A DNA stretch of 21,665 bases, from IMG/VR virus record IMGVR_UViG_3300036760_000313, positions 1 through 21,665 of that record; one strand, written 5' to 3'. The notes under the pieces are model-generated. The model was not told the DNA's origin. It searched no databases and was given only the letters and a program-made list of their open reading frames with translations. A program made the translations under genes and the position numbers. This document shows positions 5,615-19,907 of this stretch, one piece after another. This stretch comes from a virus. How positions within the stretch are numbered: position 1 is the first letter of the stretch; each line of letters starts with the position of its first letter.

Positions 5615-6037
5615 CTATTCCTCGACGACCGGAGCGGCCGCGTCGTCCTCGTTCGCCACTGATGGCGCGCTCCGCGTTGGTTCGTCCGCGTCGCCGCCCT
5701 CGTCGGAGTCGACGAGCTTGACCGCGACCCTCTCCTCGCCGTGTATCCACGTCAAACGAACGCCGTGCGCGGCGTACGTCTCGTACGACTTTTTCCGGAG
5801 ATGCTGGAGCGCGTTCGCCTGGAGCCCCTTGCGCTCGCCGTTGGCGTCGTTGATCGTCTCGTAGCACTCCGCGAGCGACTTGCAGAGCGCATCGAGCGCC
5901 CGATCTTTCGGGATATCCAGGCCCGGGAGCCGCTGCGCCTGAGCGCGGGCCTTTTTCGGTTTGTTACCGCGAGCGGCCTTCCGCGCCGGCGTTGCCGGTC
6001 GAGCGGGCCGCGACGTTTTGACTGGTCGCTTTGCCAT
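5615..6037 (-). CDS. Hypothetical protein, basic N-terminus and acidic C-terminus
   Basis: A 140-residue protein starting at ATG 6037 behind GGGAG at 6-7 bases. The first 35 residues are rich in Lys, Arg, Ala and Pro, like a DNA-binding tail. The core (ALDALCKSLAECYETIND, then ALQHLRKKSYETYAAHGVRL) is helical, followed by a strand pair (WIHGEERVAVKLVDSDE) and an acidic disordered end. It sits directly upstream of the methyltransferase (TAG then ATG, 4 bases between). The HNH gene overlaps its first 74 bases. Similar small helical proteins occur in phage replication operons, but I cannot assign a function. Confidence 0.75.
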   Translation of the reverse strand: MAKRPVKTSRPARPATPARKAARGNKPKKARAQAQRLPGLDIPKDRALDALCKSLAECYETINDANGERKGLQANALQHLRKKSYETYAAHGVRLTWIHGEERVAVKLVDSDEGGDADEPTRSAPSVANEDDAAAPVVEE

Positions 6038-6599
6038 GAGGTACTCCCTGAGTGATATGGCCTACTTGTGATCCGCTGAGGCCGAACCGAGCGGCCACGA
6101 CCCAACGGGGTGTTCCGCTAGATCGTAGAAGTTGAATCTCTCGACGTTGATCGTCTGACACTTTCGATCGTCCGTTGCGCTCGCCGGCGAGCAGCCCAGG
6201 ATACTTACACATCCCGTTCTCGTCGCCGCGAGCGTGCCGATCACGTGGGCACGGCGGGATGGGCTTCCAGCGGCCCTTCGCCACGCAATCTCTCACGTTG
6301 TGGAGCTGCGTCCCGAGAAACAAATGTGCGGGGTTAACGCACGCCGGCACGTCGCACTTGTGCAGCACGTTCAGGTCGTCCGGGATCGTGCCACGGCAGA
6401 GCGTCCACGCGAGTCGATGAGCCCCTTGTGAACGGCCGTTCCAGCGGACCTTCCCGTATCGGTCACAATATCCACGCCACAGCCAGCATCCGGTCGCGCT
6501 CGGTTCACTTCGCGCCCGCAGCCATCGCCGAGCCGCCCAAGACAGAGGCGTCGGCAGTACTCCGCGAGCAAGAGGGCGTCCGAAATTGTGTGGGTGCAT
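5964..6599 (-). CDS. HNH homing-type endonuclease
   Basis: Homing-type HNH protein with a DNA-binding C-terminus. Core motifs: GCWLWRGYCDRYGKVRWNG, AHRLAW, VLHKCDVPACVNPAHLFLGT (the H-N-H metal site) and NVRDCVAKGRW. The C-terminus has RNGRSKVSDDQRREIQLLR and VAARFGLSGSQVGHI, a helix-turn-helix that usually sets site specificity. I chose ATG 6599 (211 residues, weak GGAG 4 bases upstream); similarity to HNH proteins begins only near 6500, and the 5' part runs through ruvC in another frame. Its end overlaps the next gene by 74 bases. It probably is a selfish element that invaded the 3' end of ruvC; such free-standing nucleases cleave cognate alleles lacking the insertion. Confidence 0.75.
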   Translation of the reverse strand: MHPHNFGRPLARGVLPTPLSWAARRWLRARSEPSATGCWLWRGYCDRYGKVRWNGRSQGAHRLAWTLCRGTIPDDLNVLHKCDVPACVNPAHLFLGTQLHNVRDCVAKGRWKPIPPCPRDRHARGDENGMCKYPGLLAGERNGRSKVSDDQRREIQLLRSSGTPRWVVAARFGLSGSQVGHITQGVPHGKATSQNVAARSTGNAGAEGRSR

Positions 6600-6996: not shown

Positions 6997-7025
6997 ATTC
7001 TGGACTAGCACGCCGTACGCGTCAA
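6997..7025 (-). promoter_or_regulatory. Candidate sigma70-type promoter ahead of ruvC
   Basis: On the minus strand TTGACG (7025-7020) and CAGAAT (7002-6997) are separated by 17 bases. The -35 matches 5 of 6 consensus positions and overlaps the DnaB stop codon; the -10 matches 4 of 6. Predicted transcription start would leave a leader of under 10 bases ahead of the ruvC ATG. The short leader and the weak -10 make this tentative. Confidence 0.35.
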
Positions 7026-8413
7026 CGTCGCCAGCCGCGGGGCGGGCGGGGCTTCTGCTCGGCGGGGCCCGCATCAGGGAGCGGCACCTCCTCGGGCTCG
7101 AGGCCGGCGTCGGCGAAGGTCTGCGTTTCCCGATCGAAGGTCAGCGTCACTGTGCCCGTGGGCCCGTTGCGTTGCTTGCCCAGGATCGCCGCGGTCGGGC
7201 CGCTCGCCCGATGATTCTTCCGGTGCAGGAACAGCACGATGTCGGCGTCCTGCTCGAGCGAGCCGGATTCTCGCAGGTCGGAGAGTTGCGGGGTCTTGTC
7301 GGTCCTCGAGTCCGCACCACGGTTGAGCTGCGAGAGCGCGAGGATCGGCACGCTGCACTCGTCGGCGAGCACCTTCGTCCGGCGCGAGATGTCAGTCATT
7401 TCGTCGTTGCGCGTCGCTCCGCGGCGATCGAGCGTGCCGGGCATGAGCTGTAAGTAGTCGATGATGACGAGCCCGAGGCCGCCCTCGTCGAGCCGCAAGC
7501 GCCGGCACGCGGCCCGGATGTCCCAAATGGATTGCCCGCCGCGGTCGTCGACGTAGATCGGAAGCTCGTGCATGACGCCCATCGCCTCGGCCAGCTTCGT
7601 GAAGTCGTCGGGCGCGAGGTGCCCGGCCATGATGCGCCGGAGTGGAAGGGCGGCGAGGTGCGCGAGCATCCGGCCCTGAAGCTGCCGCGTGCGCATCTCG
7701 AGCGAAAAGATCGCGACGCGCTTGCCCGTGCGAGCCGTCGCGATCGCGTTGTTGAGGATGAGCGCCGTCTTGCCGATCGACGGGCGGGCCGCCACTACGA
7801 TCATGTCTCCGGCCTGCCACCCGAGCGTGAGCTCGTCGAGGCTCGGGAATCCCGTGGTGACGCCAGTGAGTTGCCCGCGGAGCTCGACGCGCTTTTCGAT
7901 CCAGCCGTAGAGCTCGCCGGCCGTCGTGCGCAGGTCCACCATGCGCCCGGGCTCCGCGCCTCGTTGGAGCTCGATGATGGCCTTGTCCGCGGTCGCCACG
8001 ATCTCACTCGAGCGCGTCTCGCCGTCGTAGGCCGCGACGAGCATCTCGTCGCCGACGTCGATGCACCGGCGTCGGGTCGCCATCTCCCGTACGATCGCCG
8101 CGTAGTACGTCGCGTTGGCGGAGTGCGGCACGCCGTCCGTGAGGCTTGAGATGTACGCCGGGCCGCCAAGCTCCTCGAGCTCGCCGCGCCGGGTCGCCTC
8201 GTCCTTCACGGTGACGAGGTCCACTTCCACCCGGCGCTCGTGGAGCTCGAACGCGATTTCGTAAATCATCCGGTGCGCGTGCCGGAAGAAGTCGCCGGCC
8301 CGGATGACGCCGGCCAGCCGATCGAGCTGCGCGTTGTTGATAAGCACCGCGCCGAGCACGGCCTTCTCCGCCTCGAGGTTGTGCGGCAGGATGCGCTCGG
8401 ACGGATCGATCAT
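7022..8413 (-). CDS. dnaB: DnaB-like replicative DNA helicase
   Basis: A 463-residue full-length DnaB-type hexameric helicase, which unwinds DNA 5' to 3' ahead of the fork. N-terminal domain: PHNLEAEKAVLGAVL (residues 10-24) and YISSLTDGVPHSANATYYA (88-105). C-terminal RecA-like domain: TGFPSLDELT, Walker A AARPSIGKTA (208-217), Walker B VIIDYLQL (316-323), ILALSQLNRG and LRESGSLEQDAD (380-391). All key residues are present. ATG 8413 overlaps the stop of the upstream gene (ATGA) and has AAGGGCGG before it, so it was preferred over the long upstream extension of the frame, which only shadows the neighbouring gene. Confidence 0.95.
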   Translation of the reverse strand: MIDPSERILPHNLEAEKAVLGAVLINNAQLDRLAGVIRAGDFFRHAHRMIYEIAFELHERRVEVDLVTVKDEATRRGELEELGGPAYISSLTDGVPHSANATYYAAIVREMATRRRCIDVGDEMLVAAYDGETRSSEIVATADKAIIELQRGAEPGRMVDLRTTAGELYGWIEKRVELRGQLTGVTTGFPSLDELTLGWQAGDMIVVAARPSIGKTALILNNAIATARTGKRVAIFSLEMRTRQLQGRMLAHLAALPLRRIMAGHLAPDDFTKLAEAMGVMHELPIYVDDRGGQSIWDIRAACRRLRLDEGGLGLVIIDYLQLMPGTLDRRGATRNDEMTDISRRTKVLADECSVPILALSQLNRGADSRTDKTPQLSDLRESGSLEQDADIVLFLHRKNHRASGPTAAILGKQRNGPTGTVTLTFDRETQTFADAGLEPEEVPLPDAGPAEQKPRPPRGWRR

Positions 8414-8889
8414 CGGCCGCCCTTGCGCGTGCACTCGACATCGGTGCGGCACTTCGGCGCGTGCCGGCAGTCGGACGGCGGAGCGGTGAGCACGTCGTCG
8501 TCGACGCCGGCCGGCCCGCGACCGCCGAGCTTGTTGATGGCCGACGCGAACATCGCGATCGGGTACCGGGCCTCGACGTAGAACCGATCGCGGTGGTCGA
8601 AGAAGGCTACGATGCGCCGGTTGATTTCCTCGAGCGGCAGCGTCCGGAGTAGCCGCTTGATGATGGCCGTGTCCTTCGGCCAGTTGATGACGAGCTGCTC
8701 GTCGTTGTAGCGCGTGCGCCACACGGCCGCGTAGGTCTTGAGGATGTCCCGGGCCTGTTGCCCAGGGGTCGCCTCGCCGGTGAGAATCGCCTCGAGCGCC
8801 TCGAGCTCGTCGCCGAGTTTGCCCCAGGCGACACGGACCTTCTGAATCTGCGCGACCACCGCGGCCGGCACCCTTTCCTTCTCAACCAC
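8410..8889 (-). CDS. Putative helicase loader / replication accessory protein
   Basis: A 159-residue protein starting at GTG 8889 (AAGG about 10 bases upstream) with its stop overlapping the dnaB start. The central part reads YAAVWRTRYNDEQLVINW, KDTAIIKRLLRTLPLEEINR, FFDHRDRFYVEARYPIAMF. This arrangement recurs in phage proteins encoded immediately before a DnaB helicase and resembles the C-terminal helical module of phage replisome-organiser proteins. The last 30 residues hold Cys and His (DCRHAPKCRTDVECTRKGGR) and might bind zinc. The loader role is inferred from position and pattern; no ATPase motif is present, so it is not a DnaC-type AAA+ loader. Confidence 0.75.
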   Translation of the reverse strand: MVEKERVPAAVVAQIQKVRVAWGKLGDELEALEAILTGEATPGQQARDILKTYAAVWRTRYNDEQLVINWPKDTAIIKRLLRTLPLEEINRRIVAFFDHRDRFYVEARYPIAMFASAINKLGGRGPAGVDDDVLTAPPSDCRHAPKCRTDVECTRKGGR

Positions 8890-9094
8890 GTTTCACTAAC
8901 CTTGGTCGCATGTCGCGCCCTTCGACGGCAGCCCTGTCCAGCCGGCGCCGCTCGGCCGCCACGCGACGATCGGACTTCAACGCAGTCATCTCGTCGCGGA
9001 ACCGCCTCGACGCCCTACAGAGCTTCCACGGCGTGATAACGCCAGCTTCCGCCGCAGTCCGCATCTCGGTCTTACACCCCACACGTCCTCTCAA
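8882..9094 (-). CDS. Small basic protein, first gene of replication operon
   Basis: A frame of up to 70 residues ending at TGA 8882-8884, overlapping the next gene's GTG start by 8 bases. The start is uncertain: TTG at 9094 has GAGG at 8-base spacing, GTG at 9082 has AGAGGA very close, and ATG at 9064 has only a distant GGGGTG. The protein is Arg-rich (SRRFRDEMTALKSDRRVAAE near the middle) and probably binds nucleic acid. It is the first reading frame after the long structured non-coding region and may be a target of any leader-based control. Confidence 0.5.
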   Translation of the reverse strand: MRGRVGCKTEMRTAAEAGVITPWKLCRASRRFRDEMTALKSDRRVAAERRRLDRAAVEGRDMRPRLVKRG

Positions 9095-9164: not shown

Positions 9165-9386
9165 GAGCGCCACGGGGTACAGGCTCCCCTACACGACGGG
9201 AAGCCTGACCGGGAAAACGGGTGGCACATAGCCCTCGGCTTTTCGCGGTCCCGTGGATGCCGGCTGACGGCCCACAGGTCGGGTCAGACTTTCGTAGCCG
9301 ACAGCCGGCATCCCTTGCCCGCTCTGACCCTGCGGCCCCACGGTGCCAGCTCTGCAACGCCCCGGTTGCTGGCTTGGACGGCGCTC
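9165..9386 (-). ncRNA. Candidate structured RNA (leader or ncRNA) with H-type pseudoknot
   Basis: The window's one long gene-free stretch is dense in exact inverted repeats. A 12-base repeat (9255-9266 with 9302-9313) and an 8-base repeat (9281-9288 with 9323-9330) are interlocked, the topology of an H-type pseudoknot. Enclosing pairs: CCGTGG 9251-9256 with 9337-9342, TGGCAC 9222-9227 with GTGCCA 9343-9348, and 9165-9173 with 9378-9386 (nine pairs including two G-U if the minus strand is transcribed). Additional hairpins: 9344-9372 (bulged) and 9180-9207 (10 pairs, one G-U on the minus strand). A further hairpin at 9129-9156 sits just outside. No match to group I/II introns, HDV-like ribozymes, RNase P or tmRNA was seen. 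It could also be an origin acting as DNA. Confidence 0.4.
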
Positions 9387-9433
9387 GACCCCGGTGGCAG
9401 TGGCTCCCGGCCGAACGGTTGAATTGTGCCGTG

Positions 9434-9462
9434 GTGACGGAAAGTGGGAAACGAGGTAGAAT
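9434..9462 (+). promoter_or_regulatory. Candidate plus-strand sigma70-type promoter
   Basis: GTGACG (9434-9439) and TAGAAT (9457-9462) are 17 bases apart, matching 4 of 6 and 5 of 6 consensus positions. It points against all genes in the window. Transcription would begin near 9469 and meet a terminator-like hairpin about 30 bases on. Confidence 0.4.
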
Positions 9463-9468
9463 TGCTCT

Positions 9469-9536
9469 CGTTCGACCCGCGCTTCACCGCGGTTTGCGCC
9501 TGCCCGGCTTCGATCCCGGGCGGGCGCGTTCTTTGT
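9469..9536 (+). ncRNA. Candidate antisense small RNA
   Basis: Bounded by the plus-strand promoter at 9434-9462 and the terminator hairpin at 9496-9534, this would be an RNA of about 68 bases. It is complementary to the 5' end of any transcript begun at the facing minus-strand promoter (9532-9561). No open frame of note lies on the plus strand here. The arrangement resembles antisense control of replication genes in plasmids. Existence rests on the two predicted signals only. Confidence 0.3.
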
Positions 9537-9600
9537 ACCTCACCCGTGTCACCCGTGTCAACGTCGCGCTCGAGCCACCCGGTAATTGTGGGCGCTCCAT
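9484..9600 (-). CDS. Possible 38-residue basic peptide
   Basis: ATG 9600-9598 lies one base past the helicase stop (TGACATG) with GGGAG 8 bases upstream, and the frame ends at TGA 9484-9486. The product is Arg/Lys-rich (VRYKERARPGSKPGRRKPR at the C-terminus). Ribosome binding site and position favour translation, but the frame crosses two 9-base direct repeats, a promoter candidate and a hairpin, which suggests the DNA has other duties. Low confidence. Confidence 0.25.
   Translation of the reverse strand: MERPQLPGGSSATLTRVTRVRYKERARPGSKPGRRKPR
9496..9534 (+). terminator. Rho-independent terminator, plus-strand orientation
   Basis: Arms 9496-9507 and 9516-9527 form 12 pairs with one G-U if read on the plus strand, around an 8-base loop, followed by a T-rich run (GTTCTTTG). 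Read on the minus strand the G-U becomes an A/C mismatch and no T run follows, so the signal is oriented against the genes. Confidence 0.55.
9532..9561 (-). promoter_or_regulatory. Candidate promoter for the replication operon leader
   Basis: Perfect -35 TTGACA (9561-9556) and -10 TACAAA (9537-9532, 4 of 6) at 18-base spacing on the minus strand. Transcription from about 9525 would give a leader of over 400 bases, containing the structured region, before the first replication gene. The spacer contains two tandem 9-base repeats that could bind a regulator. Confidence 0.45.
9540..9557 (+). repeat. Two tandem 9-base direct repeats
   Basis: TCACCCGTG occurs twice in tandem (9540-9548, 9549-9557), followed by a degenerate third unit (TCAACGTCG, 9558-9566). 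They fill the spacer of the minus-strand promoter candidate. Iterons of an origin or a small operator are both possible. Confidence 0.6.
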
Positions 9601-9601
9601 G

Positions 9602-11449
9602 TCAGTGTCTCCCTTTTCTCGCGAGCGCGAGGGCGATGAGTTGCGAGGCTTCCCCGCTCGAGAGTCCGGGCTTGACCGGCACCCGGAGCCGAGCGAGGCA
9701 CTTGATTTGCTTCTCGGTCGCCGGCACGCCCTTCCACGCCGCGCCCTTGTCCTTCAGCTTCGCGACCGTCCGGCGCTCGGCCGCGATGAACGCCTCGCCG
9801 AGCCGGAGCGCCTGCTGCGCGTCCACCACGCCGGCCGCGATGGTCCGCGGGGCCGACGTCTCGTACGTCACCCGGCCGGCCCCCGGCGCTTGGATCGTGT
9901 GCCGGCGCGTGAGCACGACGTTGAACTTCTCGAGCAGGTCGGGCTCGACGCGCACAGTCTCCTGGTCGCCTTCCCAGGGGTATGTGATCTGGAACTTGTC
10001 GGTGCCCTCGCGCAGCCAATCGAGCGCGAGGCCCTGGCCTAAGTCGCCCATCTCCATGACGGTCCACACGTCGAAGCTCGAGGCCCGGGCCGCGAGCTGC
10101 TCGAGCGTCATGCGCTCGCCCTCGCCGAGCGCGATGCCTGGGTACTTCGCCTCGAGCGCGGCGAACTCCTCCTTGACTTGCTTGAGGTTCTTGCCCTTGA
10201 CGACGAGCGACGGCGGCAGGCCGTAGAGCACCGGCGAGCTCTGAAGCGAGTGCCGGCGTGCGATGTCGACGATGTCGATGACGAGGCAGTCCGTTTTGCC
10301 CGGAAAGATTCGGAGCCCGCGGCCGGTCATTTGCTCGTAGAGCGTCGCGGACTTCGTCGGCTTCGCGTGCAGGATGCACGACGCGATCGGCAGGTCGGTC
10401 CCTTCGGTGAGCACCATGCAATTCGTGATGATTTGGACAGTGCCGGCCTCGAACGCCCGGAGCATCTCCCGCCGCAGGTCCTTCGGAGTCTCGCCCGACA
10501 GGGCCGCCGCCTTGATGCCGGCGCGGTCGAACGTCGCCGCGAGCGCGTGCGCGTGCGCCACGTCGACGGTGAACGCGAGCGTCTGCCGGTCGCTGGCGTA
10601 CTGCTGCCAGCTTGCGACCGCGAGCTGATTCCGGCGCTCGACGTTCACGGCCTCGGCGAGGTCCTTTTGATTGAACTCGCCGCGGTGCATGCGCACGTGA
10701 TCGAGCGAGGTGTCGGTCTCGACGACCCACGGCACGATCGGCACGAGCCAGCCGTCACTGATGGCGGACTTCAGGTCGTAGCTGTACGCGATCGTCTGGA
10801 ACACGCACCCCAGGCCCACCGCGTCGGAGCGGTTTGGCGTCGCGGTGACGCCGATGAGCACGCGGTCTTTCGGCGCGACCGCGTCCCACCCCGTTAGGGC
10901 CGCCGACATCTTCGCCACGTCGTCGAACAAGGCGGCCTCCGCGTTGTCGACGCCCTCGACCGCGTCAGCCATCGGCAGGAAACCCAGGTGCGCGAGCGCC
11001 GTGCGATACGACGGGGCCGCCGCATGATGCGCCTCGTCGACGACGACGAGCCGACACGTCGTCCGGCCCATGAGTCGGCGCAGCCGTTGGCACTTCGAGG
11101 CCGTGAGCGTCTGGATCGACGCGATGACCACGTCGCACAGACTCGAGGCGTAGCGGTCAGCCTGCTCGATGCCGACGCGAGCGTGCGGATTCGCCGCGAC
11201 GATCTTCCGGGCCGCTTGGTCGAGTAGCTCCTCCCGGTGCGCGATGACGAGCATCTTGCGATCGCCGGCCGGGAACTGCGCGAGCCACGCCTTGAGACCG
11301 GGCCACTCGAGCAGCGCGGCGAAGAAGACGGTTTTGCCCGTGCCGGTCGGGGCCTTGAGGAGCAGCCGGGTCTGCCCGGCCGCGAGCCCGCGGCACACCG
11401 CCTCGGCCATGTCGCGTTGATAGGGCCGGAGCGTGGGGGCGGGGCTCAT
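9602..11449 (-). CDS. SF2 DEAH-box DNA helicase
   Basis: A 615-residue superfamily 2 helicase. Motifs in order: RPYQRDMAEAV (Q-like), Walker A APTGTGKT (33-40), VIAHREELLDQA (Ia), DEAH in VVVDEAHHAA (138-141), GVTATPNR (200-207), ITNCMVLTEGTDLP and motif VI YEQMTGRGLR (371-380). All catalytic residues are present. The C-terminus (TEKQIKCLARLRVPV, EASQLIALALARKG) is a small helical module found in phage helicases of this type. It probably remodels branched DNA during recombination-dependent replication, working with the annealing protein and exonuclease upstream. ATG 11449 overlaps a 16-codon mini-frame; GGAGGG lies 7 bases before it. Confidence 0.93.
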   Translation of the reverse strand: MSPAPTLRPYQRDMAEAVCRGLAAGQTRLLLKAPTGTGKTVFFAALLEWPGLKAWLAQFPAGDRKMLVIAHREELLDQAARKIVAANPHARVGIEQADRYASSLCDVVIASIQTLTASKCQRLRRLMGRTTCRLVVVDEAHHAAAPSYRTALAHLGFLPMADAVEGVDNAEAALFDDVAKMSAALTGWDAVAPKDRVLIGVTATPNRSDAVGLGCVFQTIAYSYDLKSAISDGWLVPIVPWVVETDTSLDHVRMHRGEFNQKDLAEAVNVERRNQLAVASWQQYASDRQTLAFTVDVAHAHALAATFDRAGIKAAALSGETPKDLRREMLRAFEAGTVQIITNCMVLTEGTDLPIASCILHAKPTKSATLYEQMTGRGLRIFPGKTDCLVIDIVDIARRHSLQSSPVLYGLPPSLVVKGKNLKQVKEEFAALEAKYPGIALGEGERMTLEQLAARASSFDVWTVMEMGDLGQGLALDWLREGTDKFQITYPWEGDQETVRVEPDLLEKFNVVLTRRHTIQAPGAGRVTYETSAPRTIAAGVVDAQQALRLGEAFIAAERRTVAKLKDKGAAWKGVPATEKQIKCLARLRVPVKPGLSSGEASQLIALALARKGRH

Positions 11450-11496
11450 GCGAGTCCCTCCAGTTCCAAGCTGCCGTAGAGCGCCGCGAGCGTCAT
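11446..11496 (-). CDS. 16-codon linking mini-ORF
   Basis: ATG 11496 overlaps the stop of the HNH remnant (ATGA) and its own TGA overlaps the helicase start (ATGA). It encodes MTLAALYGSLELEGLA, and its last codons contain the helicase ribosome binding site. It may act by carrying ribosomes to the helicase start, not through its product. See the twin at 14354-14407. Confidence 0.4.
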   Translation of the reverse strand: MTLAALYGSLELEGLA

Positions 11497-11720
11497 GGCC
11501 GGCCGCCCCGCAGGCCGGCGAACACCCGATACAGGGTCGCCGGTTTCATCGCGAGTCGACGCGCCATCTCTTGAACTCCGATCTTCTCTCCGTCCGCGGT
11601 GAGCAACCAGACAGAGCGAGCGTTCTGGCTCTGCTGCATCTTGGTCGCCCATCGCACATTGGCCGGCGCGTACCCCTTACGTCCGTTGAGGCGGTCGAGT
11701 GTACTCCCGTGACCGGCCAT
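11493..11720 (-). CDS. HNH endonuclease C-terminal remnant
   Basis: A 75-residue frame beginning one base after the stop of the previous gene. STLDRLNGRKGYAPANVRWA followed by TKMQQSQNARS is the end of the HNH core of homing endonucleases (the usual form is SLDRIDNDGxYxPxNCRWAT). It is followed by a small HTH-like tail (VQEMARRLAMKPATLYRVF) that these enzymes use for DNA recognition. The N-terminal two thirds, including the first His and the Cys pairs, are missing. It is therefore probably a decayed nuclease, or a surviving DNA-binding domain. The intact frame and overlapping stop argue that it is still translated. Confidence 0.7.
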   Translation of the reverse strand: MAGHGSTLDRLNGRKGYAPANVRWATKMQQSQNARSVWLLTADGEKIGVQEMARRLAMKPATLYRVFAGLRGGRP

Positions 11721-17264: not shown

Positions 17265-19574
17265 CTACCGGACGAGGGGCTCGGGGCGGGCCGGCTGCGT
17301 GTTCCGCGGGGAGTACGATCGTACCCCCGGCAGCGCGACCGCCTCGGGCACCGCGGGCTTGCAGAGTATCAGATTCACGTAGGCCGGTCGATTGTCCGCA
17401 CTCGCTCCGGTGAAGGTGGGCGCACTCACGGTCCCTGTCGCGGTCGTCGTGTGCGTATGCCCACTCAGAGCCGATCCCGTAAAGGTCGGTGCGCTATTCG
17501 TACCCGTCGCAGTGACGGTATGGCCGTGGCTACTCAACGCACTGCCGGTGAACGTCGGTGCGGAGTTCGTACCTCCCGGAGTCAAGGTATGTGTATGCGT
17601 ACCCAACGCATCGCCAGTGAAGGTGGGTGCAGATACGGACCCTGTGGCCGTCGTAGTATGCGAATGCGAAGACAGCGCATCCCCCGTGAACGTAGGCGCA
17701 GTCACCGTCCCCGTGGCGGTCGTCGTGTGCGAATGCGTCCCTAAGGCGCTACCGGTGAAGGTCTCTGCGCTAGTCACCGCGCTGCTACCCGTGAATGTCG
17801 GCGTACTGATCGACCCGGTAGCCGTAGTCGTATGCGAATGGGTACCGAGTGCGGAGCCGGTGAAGACCTCCGCACTGGTCACACTACTACTGCCGGTGAA
17901 GGTGGGCGCCGATGCCGTCGCGGCTTTGAAGGTGCCAATGCCGGTAATGAACGAGGCCGAGCCGTCCGAGAACGTCGCTTGTACTGCCGCGGCCGTCGTC
18001 TGCACCTGCCATGCCATCGCCTGTCCTGGAGCAGTGGTCCCCGTGCCAGCGCTGCCAATGCCTTCGTCTAATGTCCACGACCCCGTCGCAGCCAGCGTCC
18101 CTGGAGTACCGCCGGAGACATTCGTGAAGCCGAATAGGAACTGCCCATTCGTCGTTGGCGTCACCGTCGCACTCGGTGCAGTGGGCGTAGTCGTAGAGGA
18201 CTGGAATTGATAGCCGCTCTTATCTAGCGGATCCGTCGTAGTCAATCCAGCGACCTCAATCGCGCAGATGACAATAGAGATCGCGCTCGCGGAGAAATGC
18301 GCAGTGACTATGTTGCTCGCGGTACCGCCGGTAATGTTGTAGGCGTACGCCAGTTCAATCGCTTGATGGTTCGTTGTGTCCGGTGCCAGACCGGTACTGA
18401 CTAGCGTATACGTATTGCCTTCGGTATCGGTCACGCTACTGAGCGTCTGCGAAGACGCGTTGCCCCAACTGACCACCGCAAGGATCGCATGCGTAGCCAC
18501 GGTCTTCTGTACAAAGGCCGTTGTCGCGCCGGTGGTCCCACTCGCTCCGAAGGCGGAGAAGACGGCCGCACCATACTTCACCGGAATGATGGGCCAGGTA
18601 ATCTTTCCGGCTTCAGTATATGACGTCAAGCCCGCGTTCGCGCCCGCGCTCTCTACGCCCAGCGATCGTGCACTACCTCCGGTCGCCGTGCTGGTCATCC
18701 CATGCGTACCGGTCGTACTCGCCGTGGTGCCGCCCTGTACCGACATAGTTCCGTGGGTATGCGCGGCGACTTGAGTGGTCGGCACCATCGTGAGCACCGG
18801 CACGGCCGTCGGAAACGCGACGGTACCGGTCGGTGTCACCGTGCCCGTCCCGTTCGTACCGGCGGGAGTGCCCGCACTATCAGAACTACTGGCCACGCTA
18901 TCGCCCGTGAACGTTGGTGTCGAGATCGTACCCGTCGCCGTCACCGTCCCCGTACCGTTCGTGCCCGCCGGAGTGCCTGCGCTCACCGCACTGCTTGCCA
19001 CGCTGTTGCCGGAGAAGGTCGGCGTGCTATTCGTCCCCGAGGGAGTCCCAGCACTGACCGACGAGGAGGCAACACTGTTACCGGTAAACGTCGGCGTCGC
19101 ATTCGTACCGGAGGGCGTCCCGGCGGATGTCGCGGAGGTGGTCTGCGCACTGGTGCCAGTAAACGTTGGCGCCGTGACACTCCCTGCTGGAGTCCCTGCC
19201 GAGTCGGTACTGGTGCTCACGGAGTCACCTGTGAAGGTCGGGGCCGTGTTCGTTCCTGCCGGAGTCCCTCCGCTGGTAGATGACGAGGCCACCGAGTTGC
19301 CGGTGAACGACGGGGCCGAGTTGGTGCCGGCCGGCGTGAGGTTGTCGCTGCCGCCCGTCGCCGCGATGTCCGCGTGCGAGGCCCGCGTGAGCCGGATGAA
19401 CTTCCCGTCGTACGTCGTCACCTCGGTCCATCCGTTCGGGCACGTGCCGGCTGCGAGGAACAGGAAGTTGCTCGCCTGCATCGGGCTCGGCATGAGCCCG
19501 TAGTCGAGCGTGTAGGTGACGACGCCCAGGCTCACGAGCAGACTGACGACGGCGTTGAGTGCGATCTTCTTCAT
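17265..19574 (-). CDS. Repeat-rich tail collar/fibre protein with HxH needle-like C-terminus
   Basis: A 769-residue virion protein starting at ATG 19574 (MKKIALNAVV...), chosen over a longer frame whose first 54 residues are shadow sequence of the previous gene. Order: hydrophobic N-terminal segment (1-25); collar domain with CPNGWTEVTTYDGKFIRLT; about ten units of GTxxxPTFTGxSVASS type; AHTHGTMSVQGG and WPIIPVKYG; a beta-rich inserted module (from SAFGASG to FITGIGTFKAAT, about 200 residues); six units with HSH, HTH or HGH every 20 or so residues; end DNRPAYVNLILCKP. The HxH series recalls the iron-binding needle tip of T4 gp37 and suggests receptor contact. Codon choice is much more varied than in neighbouring genes. 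Confidence 0.85.
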   Translation of the reverse strand: MKKIALNAVVSLLVSLGVVTYTLDYGLMPSPMQASNFLFLAAGTCPNGWTEVTTYDGKFIRLTRASHADIAATGGSDNLTPAGTNSAPSFTGNSVASSSTSGGTPAGTNTAPTFTGDSVSTSTDSAGTPAGSVTAPTFTGTSAQTTSATSAGTPSGTNATPTFTGNSVASSSVSAGTPSGTNSTPTFSGNSVASSAVSAGTPAGTNGTGTVTATGTISTPTFTGDSVASSSDSAGTPAGTNGTGTVTPTGTVAFPTAVPVLTMVPTTQVAAHTHGTMSVQGGTTASTTGTHGMTSTATGGSARSLGVESAGANAGLTSYTEAGKITWPIIPVKYGAAVFSAFGASGTTGATTAFVQKTVATHAILAVVSWGNASSQTLSSVTDTEGNTYTLVSTGLAPDTTNHQAIELAYAYNITGGTASNIVTAHFSASAISIVICAIEVAGLTTTDPLDKSGYQFQSSTTTPTAPSATVTPTTNGQFLFGFTNVSGGTPGTLAATGSWTLDEGIGSAGTGTTAPGQAMAWQVQTTAAAVQATFSDGSASFITGIGTFKAATASAPTFTGSSSVTSAEVFTGSALGTHSHTTTATGSISTPTFTGSSAVTSAETFTGSALGTHSHTTTATGTVTAPTFTGDALSSHSHTTTATGSVSAPTFTGDALGTHTHTLTPGGTNSAPTFTGSALSSHGHTVTATGTNSAPTFTGSALSGHTHTTTATGTVSAPTFTGASADNRPAYVNLILCKPAVPEAVALPGVRSYSPRNTQPARPEPLVR
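17395..17920 (-). repeat. C-terminal repeat block encoding HxH units
   Basis: Six to eight protein repeats of about 20 residues with a PTFTG(S/D)AL core and an HSHTTTATG-like arm. The DNA copies differ mostly at synonymous positions; for example PTFTG is spelled with several different codon sets. Confidence 0.75.
18810..19345 (-). repeat. N-terminal repeat block of the fibre gene
   Basis: Repeats of about 18-26 residues with a PTFTGNSVASS core joined by AGTPAGTN-type linkers. As in the C-terminal block, protein similarity is high while the DNA units use varied codons. Confidence 0.75.
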
Positions 19575-19582
19575 GGGCTCCC

Positions 19583-19907
19583 TCAGTGAATCGACATCCA
19601 CAGCACGAGCACTGTGCCGATGCGGTCGGTGCCGCCGATGTTGGCGATCGTGCCGTCGCCGGTGATCGTGAACTCGTCCGACACGTCGACCACGTCCGTC
19701 ACCGCGAAGCCTGCGCCGACGTACAGCGTCGCACAATGGACGGCGTCATCGGCGTAGAGGCCCGGGCACGGCGTACTCGCCGGGCCCGGTGTAGTCGAAC
19801 ATCTTGCGCTTGAGCGAGACTGAGGCGGTCGCGTCACCGGCGTCGGCCGGCATGGGCCGGGGGTCGCCGGCCGCACGATTCGGGTACAGCCACCACGGGG
19901 TCGCCAT
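19583..19907 (-). pseudogene. Small virion-type protein split by a +1 frameshift
   Basis: ATG 19907 overlaps the previous stop (TGATG) and opens a 53-codon frame (MATPWWLYPNRAAGDPRPMP at the start) that stops at 19746. A second frame continues from about 19757 to 19583. Joining the two with a +1 shift at the GTGCCCGGGCCTC stretch (19757-19769) gives 107 residues. Its C-terminal half (AVPG-LYADD, GFAVTDVVDVSDEFTITGDG, IANIGGTDRIGTVLVLW) aligns closely with the adjacent 106-residue protein. This is either a programmed shift, an indel mutation or a sequencing error. Neither half alone makes sense beside the paralogue. Function unknown; probably virion-associated. Confidence 0.75.

Follow-up and report, generated by a model that had tools for sequence, protein, structure and literature searches.

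Gene order at the locus

The window, meaning the whole stretch of DNA analyzed here, is the 21,665-base IMG/VR virus record IMGVR_UViG_3300036760_000313. All of its recognized genes lie on the minus strand, and they encode a terminase, a methyltransferase, a Holliday junction resolvase, DnaB, an SF2 helicase, an exonuclease, an Mgm101-type annealing protein, and an endolysin. Within a 700-base gap, with the SF2 helicase gene upstream and a 159-aa gene followed by the DnaB gene downstream, lies a predicted pseudoknotted RNA of ~240 bases (Table 1). The stretch from the RNA to the next gene showed no terminator, and in most members of the RNA family the start codon of that gene falls ~20-60 nt past the last hairpin, H6. 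A short ORF precedes the 159-aa gene, and two relatives, L006 and L010, carry short ORFs (61 and 69 aa) at the matching position; the three predicted products are basic, and those of L006 and L010 have similar ends (FDPxPRL).

The 159-aa protein had no family match in the databases searched, which included Pfam and PHROG. Its AlphaFold model is all-helical with moderate confidence (pLDDT 75), and a fold search with this model gave no match among solved structures and weak matches to uncharacterized phage proteins, some of them named HTH or "phage conserved C-terminal." Going by the position of the gene, a role as helicase loader would be only a guess. Elsewhere in the window, a free-standing HNH endonuclease ORF (5964-6581, minus strand; HNH_3 4e-12) adjoins the Holliday junction resolvase gene and resembles a homing endonuclease insertion. 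Another ORF of 75 aa (11493-11720, minus strand) resembles the C-terminus of HNH-type homing endonucleases (TLDRLNGRKGYAPANVRWAT), with the catalytic part absent; it has no Pfam match and is likely a remnant. The 772-aa protein encoded at 17265-19583 (minus strand) carries many degenerate repeats (TPTFTGxS..GTPAGTN) and is tail-fibre-like, with no PHROG match.

Table 1. Positions in the window of the RNA, its predicted upstream transcription signals, and the adjoining genes
Feature	Position	Strand	Composition	Basis
SF2 (DEAD/ResIII-type) helicase gene, upstream of the RNA	9602-11449	-		Pfam ResIII 5e-22, Helicase_C; PHROG DNA helicase 1.5e-79
Sense promoter (predicted)	9532-9561	-	TTGACA (9556-9561), 18-nt spacer, TACAAA (9532-9537)
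Antisense small RNA, ~65 nt (predicted)	9469-9535	+	Hairpin 9477-9492, terminator hairpin 9496-9527, U-rich tail	Terminator scan; putative start
Antisense promoter (predicted), facing the sense promoter	9434-9462	+	GTGACG (9434-9439), 17-nt spacer, TAGAAT (9457-9462)
Helix H1	9383-9416	-	9409-9416 with 9383-9390; loop with conserved GGGAGCCA...GCCACCGG
Helix H2	9345-9373	-	9368-9373 with 9345-9350
Pseudoknot PK1	9315-9357	-	H2 loop UUGC (9354-9357) with GCAA (9315-9318) in the P1-P2 joint
Helix P1	9281-9330	-	9323-9330 with 9281-9288
Hairpin P2, within P1	9297-9309	-	GCCG-GCUGU-CGGC
Loop-loop contact PK2	9263-9305	-	P2 loop GCUG (9302-9305) with P3 loop CAGC (9263-9266)
Hairpin P3	9250-9278	-	9272-9278 with 9250-9256
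Terminal hairpin H6	9180-9207	-	GGCUUCCC...GGGGAGCC	By eye
Short ORF between the RNA and the 159-aa gene	8882-9064	-	60 aa from ATG
Small gene adjoining DnaB, family unknown	8410-8889	-	159 aa
DnaB-type replicative helicase gene	7022-8413	-		DnaB_C 5e-85; PHROG 1.9e-102

The RNA recurs at the same place in related phages

Relatives were gathered through a DnaB search and through a search with an SF2 helicase alignment, and the identity of the SF2 helicase between the window and these relatives is 45-62%. Side by side and in gene sense, the gaps past the helicase gene share an order of GGGAGCCA...GCCACCGG, a hairpin, GUGGRGCC, GGGUCAGAGC...GCAGGGGAC, a small hairpin, GUCUGACCC, a second hairpin, and GGGGAGCC. 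Additional members came in through two DNA patterns, and a covariance model of the core, R1, gave E values below 1e-10 for 12 distinct sequences. Among these are L014, which is outside the seed of R1 (E 4e-14), and the pattern-found L172 (87 bits); L010 is a weak thirteenth member (E 0.01-0.03) but has the RNA at the correct position. At least 12 further phage contigs thus have the same RNA at the same place, downstream of the SF2 helicase gene and in most cases upstream of a small ORF and DnaB, so that the order helicase, RNA, small ORF, DnaB is syntenic in the relatives. All members are uncultured phages. A relative of the 159-aa gene lies downstream of the RNA in most members, directly or past a short ORF, while L166 and L014 retain the RNA with a different gene directly downstream.

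A pattern match in L170 and R1 matches in L168 (813-929), in L170, and at 19356 of the window were set aside as chance. R1 matched neither L199 nor L200, two further relatives by helicase, nor any of 396 Acidobacteriota genomes, where an empty answer is weak evidence. Past the helicase gene, L012 and L200 share GUGGAUNNC, a helix, GGGGCGGGGG, a hairpin, and GAAGA, which is perhaps a divergent form of the RNA beyond the reach of R1.

Comparison with known RNA families yielded no counterpart. Neither the window nor seven relatives had a gathering match in Rfam 15, which includes ribozymes, group I/II introns, riboswitches, RNAI, CopA, GOLLD, and ROOL; at a relaxed threshold the window matched mir-1269 alone, at a chance level (E 0.64), and four relatives had no match up to E 0.5. 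We rejected a group I/II intron, ribozyme, or riboswitch for want of an Rfam match, in keeping with the view of the initial annotation that the region fits no such class. The idea of a cobalamin box, to which GCCACUG in H1 is loosely similar, was dropped for the same reason. A blastn search of phage records found no cognate sequence, and plasmid matches were short and unrelated. Among the open-licence papers searched, which do not include a 2017 survey listing 224 RNA candidates, none was found to describe the RNA.

Covariation supports a pseudoknotted fold

The domain consists of H1, H2, P1, P2, P3, and H6, together with two tertiary pairings. The initial annotation had drawn attention to a 12-base repeat (9255-9266/9302-9313) and an 8-base repeat (9281-9288/9323-9330), both of which are exact and interlocked. 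The 8-base repeat is indeed a helix, P1, with 98% of cells paired and double changes at 6 of the 8 pairs. As for the 12-base repeat, what the relatives conserve is the loop-loop contact PK2 inside it, which in the window is its conserved core. The terminal hairpin H6, also proposed from the window, has a counterpart in most relatives, where by eye it takes the form GGCUnCCC(C)/GGGGAGCC. On the other hand, the outer closing stems (9251-9256/9337-9342, 9222-9227/9343-9348, and 9165-9173/9378-9386) can be drawn in the window but do not recur in the relatives, and a number of their strands form part of different helices that do covary. A second pseudoknot, which covaries, and the upstream unit of convergent promoters and antisense RNA had both been missed.

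Covariation, which had been suggested as a check, came out clearly. In the model alignment of 13 sequences and 29 pairs, compensatory changes occurred on both sides at 25 of the 29 pairs, 88.9% of alignment pairs were paired compared to 68.2% after shuffling, and the covariation score was 0.542 compared to 0.187, with 0 of 500 shuffles as good for all five measures. Shifting the partner by one column lowered the paired share to 35-38%. Because the alignment had been built to fit the structure, we used hand-parsed strands as a separate check; H1, H2, P1, P2, and P3 each beat all 2000 strand shuffles, in a parsing that itself selected pairing strands. Across the 13 sequences, pairing was 97% for H1 and 97% for H2 (50% and 62%, respectively, when strand-shuffled), and it reached 100% for P2 and for P3, the latter with 13 distinct 5' strands.

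PK1 occurs as five pair types (CUGC/GCAG, CAGC/GCUG, UUGC/GCAA, CUAC/GUAG, and UCAC/GUGA). In the decisive test, hand-picked tetramers formed 50 of 52 pairs (0 of 20,000 shuffles as good), while a blind test with a generic duplex energy (557 of 20,000) was suggestive at most. For PK2, the duplex energy of a sequence's own pair beat that of shuffled partners, with 4 of 20,000 as good. These comparisons support PK1 and PK2 as tertiary pairings of the predicted fold. Strong covariation in 13 phage sequences and the lack of an Rfam match also bear out the earlier suggestion of a new structured RNA with an interlocked core, and the family looks new. With unusually clear covariation that includes two tertiary pairings, it would lie where phage replication is decided, and R1 and the named contigs are ready for further work on it.

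Folding energy was better than that of shuffled sequence, but modestly so, with z-scores of -2.25 for the minus strand and -2.82 for the plus strand of the window. The sense strands of the relatives ranged from -3.3 to +0.75 and were weak in most, and a 12-bp inverted repeat on its own, present once against a shuffle mean of 0.23, is no great rarity in this sequence. Since the energies are modest in the window and weak in the relatives, it is covariation, not energy, that proves the structure. A protein-coding region is ruled out by the covariation and by core indels of 1, 2, and 5 nt between members, and there is no conserved frame, consistent with the absence of a protein-like frame reported for the region.

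The orientation, which had been left open with a leaning toward the minus strand, follows from the noncanonical pairs. G-U outnumbers A-C by 19 to 2 in the hand-parsed helices and by 19 to 6 on the alignment, and the RNA is therefore the minus strand, that of the replication genes. Inverted repeats near helicase genes could also be expected of an element acting as DNA, such as a cruciform or the hairpins of a single-strand origin, but the tolerance of G-U on one strand largely refutes this, and the loop-loop and pseudoknot pairings covary; we find a DNA-level element scarcely credible.

Convergent promoters and a predicted antisense RNA

We scored promoters against the E. coli sigma-70 consensus, which may not be that of the host. 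The predicted sense promoter lies directly past the helicase gene and is the best-scoring site of this region of the window, with 0 of 60 shuffles as good. In 15 of 18 loci the top-scoring site falls at the equivalent position, about half of them individually above most shuffles. The -10 box of the predicted antisense promoter lies 75-111 nt downstream of the sense -10 box in 14 of 18 loci. The antisense RNA would be 65-110 nt long across loci, and nearly all relatives have its two-hairpin fold, the last hairpin being followed by a U-rich tail; the stems vary in sequence and keep their pairing (0 of 2000 strand shuffles, hand-parsed). Convergent promoters with a terminated two-hairpin antisense RNA are thus predicted in most of 17-18 loci, and the antisense RNA would span the first 60-100 nt, the 5' end, of the leader. 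Comparative sequence analysis establishes the fold, its strand, and its conserved place, and likewise, as conserved sequence signals, the predicted convergent promoter pair and antisense terminator.

A CTACATnTTGnGG-like motif, a possible regulator site, was noticed by eye just upstream of the sense -35 box in ~12 of 19 loci and is not evident in the window. A U-turn (YUNR) loop motif in the antisense hairpins was inconsistent by eye and was dropped.

Possible roles in phage replication

We put at about even the chance that the RNA is a structured leader under antisense control, heading the phage replication operon. The locus is predicted to make a terminated antisense RNA that would pair with the leader of replication genes, and DnaB is among the genes downstream. 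The pseudoknotted domain would be the 5' leader of an operon comprising the short ORF, the 159-aa gene, and the DnaB helicase gene, and it would be transcribed from its own sigma-70-type promoter just past the SF2 helicase gene. The convergent antisense RNA would bind the 5' hairpins of the leader during transcription, and pairing with the nascent leader could alter the folding of the pseudoknotted domain. The altered fold may in turn set the expression of the replication genes and, through it, the timing and strength with which phage replication starts. Since L166 and L014 retain the RNA although a different gene comes first downstream, a gene-specific translation switch fits less well.

In plasmids, antisense RNAs of ~70-140 nt target the leader of a replication gene, as do CopA on CopT in R1, Inc RNA in ColIb/IncB, and RNAIII in pIP501, and the IncB/ColIb leader has a pseudoknot. 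The phage locus is alike in its predicted antisense RNA against a replication-gene leader and in having a pseudoknot, whereas its conserved domain is much larger and its target gene is no known Rep protein. The proposed type of control would thus be one already known from plasmids. If the antisense reading is true, plasmid-style RNA copy control would also exist in phages that show no integrase.

The same layout recalls ColE1, in which the short antisense RNA I covers the 5' part of the structured RNA II (PMC11012335). In the arrangement predicted here, a short convergent antisense RNA with hairpins likewise overlaps the 5' end of a long structured sense RNA, but this locus is found in phages, before a DnaB operon, with two antisense hairpins and no match to an Rfam model. 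RNA-based origins that are linked to parABS are also known from the cluster A mycobacteriophage prophages RedRock, Alma, and LadyBird (PMC7157519), which, like the present locus, tie a phage noncoding RNA region to DNA replication; unlike there, no ParB gene adjoins the RNA here, and of 15 contigs all but one lack the ParB family, the exception being a weak match within a 3646-aa reading frame ~19 kb off. Because the layout is that of RNA I/II and RNA-based prophage origins are known, we keep an RNA-primed origin as the main rival. The sense RNA would fold, hybridize with the template near its 3' end, and be cut to give a leading-strand primer, with the antisense RNA repressing priming as RNA I does on RNA II. 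The finding of DNA polymerase A and integrase families in none of 15 contigs agrees with such an origin. However, five contigs of 46-48 kb show no GC skew switch at the RNA, no hybrid-forming element or RNase H site was identified, and phages with their own DnaB frequently have protein-based origins. An origin of this kind is unlikely in our estimation. It is about as unlikely that the pseudoknotted transcript acts in its own right as initiator or primer, at an antisense-controlled ColE1-like origin that evolved independently in DnaB-carrying tailed phages, which would be a new way of starting phage replication.

An elaborate fold that stays when the downstream gene differs (L166 and L014) might instead belong to a trans-acting or structural RNA, cut from the operon transcript in the manner of GOLLD and ROOL, with a place that is merely historical and no relation to replication control. 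GOLLD and ROOL are ornate, conserved, phage-linked RNAs (PMC12286853), and the present RNA shares this elaborate conservation, but it is smaller, is a leader in a replication operon, and has no Rfam match. Its position next to the replication genes and in sense with them is constant, and a terminator of its own was not seen; we regard a trans-acting or structural role as unlikely.

An antisense-controlled leader, our preferred reading, joins two parts that do not always occur together. The antisense unit is also found in relatives without the RNA (L008, L009, L012, L013, L036, and others), which allows for a separate function of each part. For the antisense part, lambda oop is the nearest phage precedent: at pO/oop, a short antisense transcript lies by the origin and the replication genes and opposes the main promoter (PMC3985674), although oop is antisense to cII. 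The antisense promoter could accordingly serve transcription interference near an origin, with the RNA domain as a separate mRNA stabilizer, and the occurrence of the unit without the RNA fits this. The covariation of PK1 and PK2, however, exceeds the needs of a stabilizing stem, and we consider this arrangement quite improbable. We know of no pseudoknotted RNA domain at that place in lambda. Within the few hundred bases that follow the antisense unit, other long-range inverted repeats replace the RNA in L008 (GACACCATCT/AGATGGTG) and L036 (GGGACATCTT/AAGATGTCCC) and may form another structured RNA in this slot.
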